NCBI RefSeq assembly: GCF_021134715.1
Contig: NC_060024.1
Span: forward strand, 14,062,974 to 14,126,973
Direction of reading: 5' to 3'
From: Daphnia pulex
Taxonomy: Eukaryota; Arthropoda; Branchiopoda; Diplostraca; Daphniidae
DNA: 64,000 nucleotides
Below the pieces are notes generated by a model. It saw only the letters and a program-made list of their open reading frames with translations, ran no database searches and was not told where the DNA came from. Below, piece by piece: positions 4,008 through 14,802 of this stretch. Made by a program: the position numbers and the translations under genes. How positions within the stretch are numbered: position 1 is the first letter of the stretch; every line of letters begins with the position of its first letter.

Positions 4008-5223
4008 ATGTCCAGCAGCAGCATCCAGCAATTCCTTCCCCGCTCCTGTTCGTTGGCCGCTTTGGTCTTCCTGGTGGTGATGGTCGTGTTGGCCGTTTGC
4101 GTCACTACCACCAAAGCCGATGGCGGAGACGTCATGAGCGGAGGTGAAGGCGGAGAAATGACGGCCATGGCTGATGCCATCAAATATCTTCAAGGATTGG
4201 ACAAAGTCTATGGTCAAGCCGCCCGGCCCAGGTATAATACAAAATTCAAATTTCTAAAAAAACAATTTGCCAAATTTTTTCCAACAATTTGTTTGATTTT
4301 TACGTGTGTGTTTTACCTTTGTGTGTGGTCGTTTTGACCTTTTCTCTTGAAACATTCATCGACAGGTGACGTGTACCGTCATCGATTGCATGTATATCCT
4401 AATTCAAAGTGATTAGTTCGATCCTCTTCATTGTGTTTTTTGAGACTTTTCCTTTTTGCTCTCAAATGAACCTCAGCAGAGCCGTCCATTGTTTTAACAT
4501 TGAAACTGTGTTAGCGTATGTTCAGTATCAGGGGCGGTAAGATTGTCCAGTTACTGCAGCTGAAGCAACTCGACCGGCGCTACGACAACTCACTCGTTCG
4601 TCCCAGGTATCAACTCAAATTCAAATCCAAAGACTTTTGATTTTTCCCGCTCAATTCTAAATTTAAAAAAAAACAAAAAATCACAACATTTTCTTTAAAA
4701 AAGCAATTTTGATCACCGCGCAGCACCTCAATAATGAATCAAATAATTTTAAAAAGCAAATTACCTTCACACCAGTCACACATATAACTCACAGCTAGCG
4801 ATTCTCCCGCAAAGGTTTCTTTCCTATTTTGCACGCACTGAAAACAAATCAAAATTAAAAATTTGTTACACTTTTTTCTCAATTAATAAATACGAACCAA
4901 ATTGCTAAAAGATCAGCAAAAACCATTTGGCTTTAGCATGTGGAATGCACGGAACTGTTTGAATGATTGTCTAGCTGCACTCACCCATTATACTTCAGCT
5001 ATTTCAACTTTTCACGCATGATGTAATCGCGTCAATTGTTAATTCCAATCATCCATTTCCGTTGGGTTCCTGATTGCAGATTCGGCAAGCGAGGACGTCT
5101 GCCATACTTTGACATGGAAGACCTTCCCCTACACCCACAAGTTTGTTCATTCTTCTTTTCTTATTTCTAACAAAATTAAATTAAATTAATTAAACACTTT
5201 GGAACACTCAGCACGCTTATTAA
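4008..5223 (+). CDS. NPF: Neuropeptide F precursor
   Basis: Exons 4008-4231, (optional 4532-4606), 5080-5140 and 5212-5223. The short form is 98 residues. A long hydrophobic signal sequence ends about Ala37. The 39-residue peptide from Asp38 ends RPRF, followed by Gly77 (amide donor) and the Lys-Arg cleavage site. The core contains MADAIKYLQGLDKVYGQ. Arg75 is split across the exon junction, as in other arthropod NPF genes. The C-terminal remnant GRLPYFDMEDLPLHPQHAY is not an obvious second peptide. NPF is a brain and gut hormone acting through an NPY-like GPCR and controls feeding. The mature peptide agrees with my memory of Daphnia pulex NPF, which identifies the organism. Including the optional exon gives 123 residues. 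Confidence 0.95.
4532..4606 (+). other. NPF: In-frame cassette exon of NPF
   Basis: A 75-base segment sits between a cag acceptor ending at 4531 and a gtatca donor at 4607. Its length is exactly 25 codons and its phase (2 in, 2 out) matches both flanking exons. It encodes GGKIVQLLQLKQLDRRYDNS followed by LVRPR, so both splice forms end in RPR before the shared FGKR exon. Long NPF forms with such an insert are known in penaeid shrimp. Confidence 0.8.
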
Positions 5224-12400: not shown

Positions 12401-12912
12401 TAATGGCAATTTTCTGTTACTTAATTTTACCAACACTGTTATAGTCAGACAAAAGATATTCCGATTGATCTGAACATTTATTCTTCTTTCCATACCAATT
12501 CTTCAATTAATTCTCCTTTTAGATTCATTTCTGGTTACTTTTAACGACGTATAATGTCGTCAGAATTCAATATACACTCTGATCGACTTGACCATATATA
12601 ACGACTATGACGTCACAACTTCTTGGTATTTATTCAAGGCGAACCGGAAAATCTTTGCATACAAGTTGTCGCAAGTTGTTTGAGATGTTGGCAGAGTTTG
12701 ACTTTTTGACTGTTAAATGAGCGCTGGGTCCAACAGAGAAAAATGTAAGAAAAAATTATACTCGTGCAGAATCACGGTAGGTCTATCATTTGATTGAGTA
12801 TTTCCTCTACTAATACTAGCAACAACACAAATCAGAATAACGACGCGCTTATTTAAATATTAATCAATTATATCAAAACTGGAATTGCAATCTGCTTTTT
12901 TGGATAGGCTAT
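9467..12912. other. Long intergenic region with two CRE palindromes near antizyme
   Basis: Includes the antizyme 5' flank, with perfect TGACGTCA palindromes at 9994-10001 and 10146-10153 and a third at 12608-12615. Open frames such as 10063-10338 (+) and 10362-10736 (+) show no family resemblance, and I do not call them genes. Confidence 0.5.
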
Positions 12913-13919
12913 TTACAATTTTATGTGATTTCGGGACAATAATTCCAAGGTTGACTGCTTGTGAATGCAAAACTCGGACAAAGTGTGGCTATCGAACCGA
13001 CCGATCTGCTTTCCAGCAAACATTAGACATTGCTCATCAGACGGGAGACCTTCCCTTTCCTGAATTTTGTCTTTCACCCAAGCGATAGTGTTTGAAGGCT
13101 CAACTGTAAGAGTGATAGTCCTACCGGAAAATGTCTTGACAAAAATCTGCATTTCGATCTATTCAATAACAAAAGAACTCTTATAAATTGTCATTATAAG
13201 AAAAGGAGAAAAACTTTTTAAACAAATCTTACCTCATTTTTCTTCGGAATTGTTGACGAGGAAACTCGGATTGATTTCATGGCACGATTAAAAGCATCCA
13301 GATACTTTTGTTCGTCTGATGACGGTATTGAAATCTGGAGGAGTTGAGTTGCCTCAGCGACTTTTAATTCGTTGATTCTGCAATTTTTGCACAGCATTGA
13401 AACGATTTCCTTAATGGCTGAAGCATCTAAAGTGTGGGGAATTAAAGTCATTCTTTTTTCGATCTCTTTAGTGCTCTGGGAATTCCAGTAAGGTCCATTT
13501 TGGTCAAGATTCAACAGATTTGAAACATTTTGGCTCAGTTCAGGGCTGAATGTCAAGAAAAGAACTGGATGAGTTGGGTGGAAATGAGATGAAAATTCGA
13601 GCAGTTCTTTGACAGGGAAATGCAAATCAAATTGAAATGCACCAACATTTGATTGTGATTCTTGGTTGTTGGAGGCTGATTCTAACAAAACCTCTGTTGA
13701 TGACACCTGTACGATAAATGAAGATCCACTTAAATTATACGACCCGAGACGAATAGATGAGCATGGGAATTCTATAAATTGTTTCTGCATCTGGTTTTCT
13801 TGAACCTGTAAATGTAATAACAATCAAATGACCTTGTACTTTTTAAACTTATGTGATAACAAAATTACCAATAAAGCAGGTGCAGCTACGTTTATACGTT
13901 TTGTATCTCTAGAAGACAT
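12913..13919 (-). CDS. Unrecognised protein with C-terminal ubiquitin-like domain
   Basis: Three phase-0 exons on the minus strand, 13919-13869, 13805-13233 and 13158-12913, give 289 residues. The first 208 residues match no family I can name. They have a globular, beta-rich look ([15 protein letters not shown], then [23 protein letters not shown]) and a helical C-terminal half. I suspect a PH-like fold but cannot show it. The last exon starts [20 protein letters not shown] and is plainly ubiquitin-derived through AGKQ. Relative to ubiquitin, Lys6, 27, 29, 48 and 63 equivalents are kept, Lys11 and Lys33 are Arg, Leu8 and Ile44 of the binding patch are Phe and Met, two residues are inserted after AGKQ, and the LRLRGG tail is replaced by SRNHIKL. 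It therefore cannot be conjugated and probably serves as a built-in interaction module. The alternative is two neighbouring genes, but the shared splice phase favours one. Confidence 0.7.
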
Positions 13920-14802
13920 GGCGGACTTTGTTTGACTTTGAAAATAGTTGAAACCACGTTGATAAGACAACTAACTTACACGATGAAACACGATAACTTG
14001 GAAGTTATCTTTCGCGATTTCACGTGGTTGTTGACACATTTTGAACCAACGACGTTGCCATTTTCTTTGATACACCGATAAAGAATTAATCTTGGTAATT
14101 AACTCATTAAGACGAGAGGCTGAAAATGAGTCCACGTTGGAAGCGAATTGGTTTGAATAGGTGTATAAGTGTAAAAACAATCCGTACAGATAACAAAATT
14201 ATAATTGGGCGACTTGATTTACTTTTTTCACTGCAAGTTGCTCTATGAATCATTTCTTCAATCTTCAATCATTCAAATGGTGGCCGACGAGGGAATTAAG
14301 TCAAGGCAAAACTCATCAATCGGGGGGGGGGGGGGGGGGAAAGAAAATGCAGAAAACAATCAGAGGAAGAGGAGAGAAGGAAGGAAAGAAAGTTAAAAAC
14401 AACAATGACGCCAATTCAATCGAATGAATGGGGGCCACGGGATTCTCGGCCCTTCCACCAAGCCTTTCCATCCGAGACACAAATGAACGACGACATAATT
14501 CCAGACACAAAATGTACAACACAAATATAGACGGGAGGACTAAACAATTCGCAATTACACCCACACGCACACACGCACAATCACACAAAGTTGTGACACA
14601 TTCCCCACAATGGCAAAAGAAATTAAAGAACAAAAAACAAAATTTTCCCACTTTCAATCCTTTGTACAGATTATAACCATTGCACAGGCGACTAAATACA
14701 AAAACAGAAAAAGAACATTATTTTTTTGTTTGTTTTCTCTTATAGAAACAAGGCAGACAGACAGAGTCTCATCCATCTCAAATTTGTCCAATTTGGTTTC
14801 AA
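13920..14802. other. 5' flank of the ubiquitin-tail gene and 3' UTR of KMT2C/D
   Basis: The segment nearest 14803 should be 3' UTR of the minus-strand methyltransferase gene. A run of 18 G lies at 14322-14339. A 69-codon minus-strand frame at 14180-13971 ends at a good donor-like gtaagt, but it does not join the next gene in frame. Confidence 0.5.
14322..14339. repeat. Poly-G run (18 G)
   Basis: Uninterrupted 18-base G tract (C tract on the transcribed strand of the methyltransferase gene), probably within its 3' UTR. Confidence 0.9.

Follow-up and report, generated by a model that had tools for sequence, protein, structure and literature searches.

A probable chimera of a SENP6/7-type domain and a ubiquitin copy in Daphnia pulex

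The gene and its surroundings

The window analysed here is a stretch of 64,000 nucleotides of Daphnia pulex DNA (C8:14062974-14126973); the genome that was searched for relatives of its genes comprises 13 contigs and 133 Mb. On the minus strand of the window, from 13919 to 12913, lies a gene of three exons. Its spliced frame is open and encodes 289 residues, 208 from the first two exons and 81 from the third. The initial annotation had described a ubiquitin copy in the last exon, at the C-terminal end of the protein, and this observation is confirmed. The spliced frame stops after the ubiquitin copy.

Exon 1 (13869..13919) contributes the start ATG and 17 residues. An in-frame stop is present 17 codons upstream of this ATG, with no other ATG between them. 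The genome search found no stretch similar to exon 1 elsewhere, although 17 residues are too short for this result to be judged. Intron 1 (13806..13868; 63 nt) leads to exon 2 (13233..13805), whose 191 residues make up the SENP6/7-type domain discussed below and which ends at a phase-0 donor (KKNE, then gtaaga). Intron 2 (13159..13232) is only 74 nt long, and its donor is equivalent to that of a related domain exon on contig C1 (KVE, then gtaagt). Both introns have GT-AG ends and lie in phase 0, in agreement with the splice that had been proposed between the ubiquitin exon and the 208-residue half. Exon 3 (12913..13158) consists of a two-codon linker, Ile-Glu, a ubiquitin copy without Gly-Gly, and the stop codon TAA. 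A candidate polyadenylation signal, AATAAA, is found at 12629..12634 on the same strand, about 280 nt past the stop codon, and a second AATAAA is present at 12482; both are motif matches only. We infer that the gene is transcribed and spliced. A scan of viral contigs with the whole protein revealed no relatives (14 pattern matches, 0 confirmed).

The neighbour upstream is a SET-domain gene (frame 15518-14922; PF00856, E=1.5e-22), and between it and the three-exon gene the minus strand carries a run of 18 C residues (14322-14339). Elsewhere in the window, a minus-strand ORF at 8720-9112 matches ornithine decarboxylase antizyme (PF02100, E=3.3e-19) and covers its C-terminal part; this family is known for programmed +1 frameshifting. 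On the plus strand, 4011-4337 encodes a short, secreted-looking precursor that contains MTAMADAIKYLQGLDKVYGQAARPR; its only Pfam match, to Moricin, is below threshold, and we take the precursor to resemble neuropeptide F.

The N-terminal domain and its relatives

The 208-residue half had been left unrecognised in the initial annotation. Pfam indeed has no family for it, and no match to it was found in the PDB by sequence; a profile search of the PDB with the N-terminal half gave non-significant matches only, the best at E=0.4. The AlphaFold2 models are unusable, both for the full-length protein from its own sequence alone (pLDDT 34) and for exon 2 aligned with its four paralogous stretches (pLDDT 38). 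It is the genome itself that places this half. A search with the window protein returned seven matches, which are the two exons of the gene itself, one match at chance level (E=0.79), and four further stretches that are related to exon 2. The latter are located at C1:4115223-4115756 (E=4.2e-19), C3:8075413 (E=5.1e-18), C7:8709396 on the minus strand (E=5.3e-17; domain exon C7:8709396-8709956), and C3:8074624 (E=5.1e-14), and the one on C1 belongs to a SENP6/7-type gene. The window domain is identical to the C1 domain at 56 of 187 positions (30%) and to the other three copies at 46-54 of 187-190, giving an overall range of 25-30%, whereas the C1, C3, and C7 copies are 67-84% identical among themselves. 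Thus, the window copy is either the oldest branch or the one that has changed fastest. Even so, 41 alignment columns are invariant across all five copies.

On C1, Ulp/SENP protease exons come after the domain exon, and one of them matches Peptidase_C48 (E=1.8e-9). The domain exon runs in frame into the exon that follows it, and the C1 frame reaches the protease only if the donor of the domain exon is used. When the catalytic fragment of this gene was joined by hand, its best match in the PDB was SENP7 (3eay, E=1.4e-17; 7r2e, 1.7e-17), as compared with 1.9e-7 for yeast Ulp2 and 3.2e-6 for SENP1. A downstream exon contains a DCG motif, the one expected at the active site. The closest structure and this motif together identify the C1 gene as SENP6/7-type, that is, of the Ulp2 branch. 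According to reviews, SENP6/7 edit SUMO2/3 chains, and their extensions contain SIMs (PMC12687455, PMC4281951). A genome-wide search for Peptidase_C48 (PF02902) gave 37 matches. Two fall on exons of the C1 gene; the window gene and the C3 and C7 copies have none of them. The window gene has no Peptidase_C48, since only ubiquitin-type families are found in its C-terminal half and its frame ends after the ubiquitin. Judged by sequence, exon 2 is a relative of the domain that directly precedes the protease in this genome's SENP6/7-type gene, and the window gene is SENP6/7-derived and not itself a SENP.

The two genes are alike in that exon 2 is homologous to the pre-protease domain exon and ends at an equivalent phase-0 donor. 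In C1, the domain exon ends with AAAGTTGAA followed by gtaagt (last codon GAA), and the next exon starts with ATACGAATAACC, encoding Ile-Arg-Ile-Thr. In the window, the domain exon ends with AAAAATGAG followed by gtaaga (last codon GAG), and the next exon starts with ATCGAA ATGCAG, encoding Ile-Glu and then ubiquitin. The genes differ in what follows this donor, which is ubiquitin in the window gene in place of a protease, and in the intron on the 5' side, since the C1 domain exon begins further upstream and in phase 1 while exon 2 of the window gene begins in phase 0. A comparison of the window gene with the C1 locus detected no match remaining at the DNA level. Exon 3 starts with ATCGAA, which was considered as a remnant of the start of the SENP exon, ATACGA, but the bases are too few to count. 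The exon capture suggested initially is supported, although it is better described as an exchange in which ubiquitin took the place of the protease at an equivalent intron, because the N-terminal half is no orphan.

A second chimera is present at C7:8704500-8714499 on the minus strand, where a SENP6/7-type domain exon leads through the same phase-0 intron as in C1 to a BTB exon. The C7 sequence is 87.5% identical to C1 at the DNA level over an alignment of 1,227 columns (C1 locus extract L016, 3750-4956, minus-strand numbering). The similarity extends across the entire intron that follows the domain exon and ends five bases past the acceptor. Beyond the breakpoint, C7 continues as a BTB gene of a local tandem cluster, 83% and 85% identical to two of its neighbours, and the frame that passes through the phase-0 donor runs into the BTB domain (E=5.1e-22). 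Because the similarity is lost just past the same acceptor, it seems that this one phase-0 intron was used for joining on two occasions, once for the ubiquitin of the window gene and once for the BTB domain of C7. The two genes share the source of the domain, the phase-0 intron, and the addition of a new C-terminal module. Unlike the window gene, the C7 chimera carries BTB rather than ubiquitin and, given its DNA identity to C1, is much the younger of the two by sequence.

The C3 copies form a tandem pair and are about 80% identical to C1. The similar block of the first copy stops where the domain exon does, and that of the second shortly after the next intron; beyond the blocks, the sequence resembles the region upstream of the C1 gene. 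Neither the ORF listing nor the PF02902 search of the genome revealed a protease exon for these copies. The four further copies of the domain are thus one with a protease (C1), one with a BTB exon (C7), and two with neither (C3). BTB proteins are often ubiquitin-ligase adaptors. On this link, two of the four protease-less copies, counting the window gene, carry a module of the ubiquitin system at the equivalent place.

The ubiquitin copy: sequence, source, and constraint

The product of exon 3 is ubiquitin by profile (PF00240, E=2.6e-19), scoring 69.2 bits where the cut-off is 25.4, and the E-values exclude a chance resemblance. It is identical to ubiquitin at 45 of 76 positions and changed at the other 31. 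The alignment bears out the two-residue insertion and the missing Gly-Gly that had been reported from the sequence: the insertion follows residue 51, and Gly75-Gly76 is replaced by Ile-Lys (G75I, G76K), after which come Leu and the stop. At its C-terminus, the copy has another sequence, of 13 residues, where ubiquitin has STLHLVLRLRGG. The Leu8/Ile44/His68/Val70 patch is also altered, as had been noted; it now reads Phe, Met, Glu, and Leu (L8F, I44M, H68E, V70L), and three of its four positions, 8, 44, and 70, are still hydrophobic. A further change is R42C. Among the lysines, K6, K27, K29, K48, and K63 are kept, and K11 and K33 have become Arg (K11R, K33R). Ubiquitin without Gly-Gly is neither activated by E1 nor released by deubiquitinases, as is established from its enzymology. 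Because the C-terminus of this copy has no Gly-Gly, the ubiquitin tail would likewise be neither activated nor released.

A polyubiquitin gene of ten repeats is located on the same contig (C8:13922109-13925720), about 150 kb from the window gene. Each of its repeats 2-9 has an intron after nucleotide 103, and repeats 1 and 10 have none; it is unusual for a polyubiquitin gene to have all its inner repeats interrupted by introns. Exon 3 is uninterrupted at the nucleotide-103 place. In repeat 1, the ATG comes six bases after what looks like a splice acceptor, which is also the spacing in exon 3, and the first polyubiquitin exon is a plausible source of exon 3 on this evidence. The nucleotide identity of exon 3 to the ten repeats is 144-152 of 228 (0.632-0.667), with repeat 1 at 149 of 228, and that to a ubiquitin copy on C4, putatively L40, is 128 of 192 (0.667). 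Since the identity to repeat 1 is no higher than that to the other repeats, no parent can be named. Diverged ubiquitin is also found inside five other frames, at C3:881819, C3:912311, C3:919651, C3:548022, and C12:222964, where it ends in LRLRGG or LRMRGG and is followed in frame by a domain that weakly resembles the PARP catalytic domain (PF00644, E=5.6e-4 and 0.014 for the two of the five that were tested, both below the cut-off).

Of 14 positions assumed, rather than computed, to form the buried core of ubiquitin, 13 are kept in exon 3, compared with 32 of 62 positions elsewhere (Fisher P=0.0035). When 12,000 copies with 31 changes were simulated under neutrality, the frame stayed open in 2,053, and only nine of these retained at least 13 core residues. 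Another set of 3,590 simulated neutral copies, each with exactly 31 changes, included 638 with an open frame and 18 with at least 13 core residues. A weaker measure, that all 14 core positions be hydrophobic, was matched by 189 of the 3,590 neutral copies (5%). In a comparison of exon 3 with five of the ten polyubiquitin repeats, pS is 0.65-0.78 and pN is 0.24-0.26, and the ten repeats are about as divergent among themselves (mean pS 0.66, range 0.16-0.93). For this reason neither dN/dS against polyubiquitin nor two simulations based on pS were used to judge constraint; the core-residue tests use no pS and are unaffected. The non-random retention of the core indicates that the ubiquitin fold has probably been under selection while the surface and the tail have changed. 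This pattern fits the use of the tail as a non-cleavable module, as first suggested from the sequence. The term degenerate, which had also been applied to the copy, is overstated, given the preserved fold core and the hydrophobic residues that remain in the patch.

These results also weigh on the possibility that the gene is a decaying chimera without function, a pseudogene in the making. The loss of Gly-Gly, the insertion, and the 31 changes in the ubiquitin part would all be expected of such a gene, and there are other partial, protease-less copies of the SENP6/7-type domain that may be junk, the C3 tandem pair for example. However, all three exons are in open frame, both introns retain GT-AG ends, the ubiquitin core is kept non-randomly, and the 41 columns of the N-terminal domain have remained invariant in five copies even though the window copy is otherwise so divergent. 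Decay is therefore unlikely, and the product of the window gene is probably functional and expressed.

The proposed protein and its relation to known systems

Together, the two halves make it highly probable that the window gene is a chimera of a SENP6/7-type domain and a ubiquitin copy. Taken as a whole, the explanation that we favour is a likely one: the gene would encode a protease-less relative of SENP6/7 in which a non-cleavable ubiquitin module has replaced the catalytic half. A diverged SENP6/7 domain exon would have been kept with its phase-0 donor at the 3' end but without the protease, and this donor would now lead to an exon with a whole ubiquitin copy. The product would be a single chain whose tail is beyond the reach of E1 and deubiquitinases. 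How such a protein might work can be suggested only tentatively. The SENP-derived domain may dock on partners of SUMO proteases or on SUMOylated complexes, and the ubiquitin-like tail may recruit, or block, ubiquitin-binding factors such as the proteasome or adaptors of Cdc48/p97. The protein could then act as a non-catalytic adaptor or as a competitor of the true SENP6/7, going to the same destinations and there presenting or withholding a ubiquitin-like surface.

Alternatively, the ubiquitin tail could mark its own protein for degradation, as a ubiquitin-fusion-degradation (UFD) signal in cis that makes the protein short-lived, rather than serve as a binding module. Consistent with this idea, K48 and K63 are retained and Gly-Gly is absent, and non-cleavable ubiquitin fusions are known UFD substrates. 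On the other hand, the known UFD signal is N-terminal in the fusion, and the copy has lost K11 and K33 and has an altered Ile44 patch that includes H68E, so that such a role seems distinctly unlikely. Very unlikely is an arrangement of two genes, one for the SENP6/7 domain ending after exon 2 and the other a monomeric ubiquitin-like gene starting from the Met in exon 3: unspliced exon 2 would indeed reach a stop after four more codons (KKNEVRFV), and ubiquitin has its own Met1 two codons into exon 3, but the halves are separated by 74 nt only, the donor of exon 2 is equivalent to the one that C1 needs to reach its protease exons, and the acceptor places two codons before Met1 in frame.

For a protease-less SENP6/7 relative with a ubiquitin tail, the best analogue in logic is OASL, an inactive relative of an enzyme, whose C-terminal ubiquitin-like domains can substitute for poly-ubiquitin (PMC4446440). 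OASL differs in that its N-terminal domain is unrelated, its ubiquitin-like domains are two, and its enzyme fold is kept, whereas the window gene has no catalytic domain. In algae, C-terminal and internal ubiquitin fusion proteins are known (PMC6332867); some thus have ubiquitin at the same end as the window gene, with other partners and in other lineages. The initial annotation had contrasted the gene with the usual tandem repeats and ribosomal-protein fusions that have ubiquitin first; these algal proteins and OASL provide precedents for C-terminal fusions. Among the matches listed from a mostly open-access literature without preprints, no title or abstract opening mentions a fusion of SENP6/7 with ubiquitin or with BTB. 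As a kind, then, the C-terminal ubiquitin fusion is already known; the combination with SENP6/7 and the exchange at an equivalent intron were not found described in those titles and abstract openings.

A more general idea, which we consider doubtful, is that in this lineage the pre-protease domain of SENP6/7 has become a mobile targeting module. At one phase-0 intron, a component of the ubiquitin system would have taken the place of the SUMO protease on two occasions, ubiquitin itself in the window gene and BTB on C7, and the resulting protease-less adaptors would carry ubiquitin signalling to the targets of that protease. If the favoured explanation of the window gene is correct, part of a SUMO-removing enzyme would have been turned non-catalytic by the exchange of a block of exons and would have gained a permanent ubiquitin-like tail. 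The gene would then be a natural test of the SENP6/7 domain as a stand-alone targeting unit and of how ubiquitin becomes a fixed interaction domain, and, with the C7 chimera in the same genome, two outcomes of one kind of joint could be compared.
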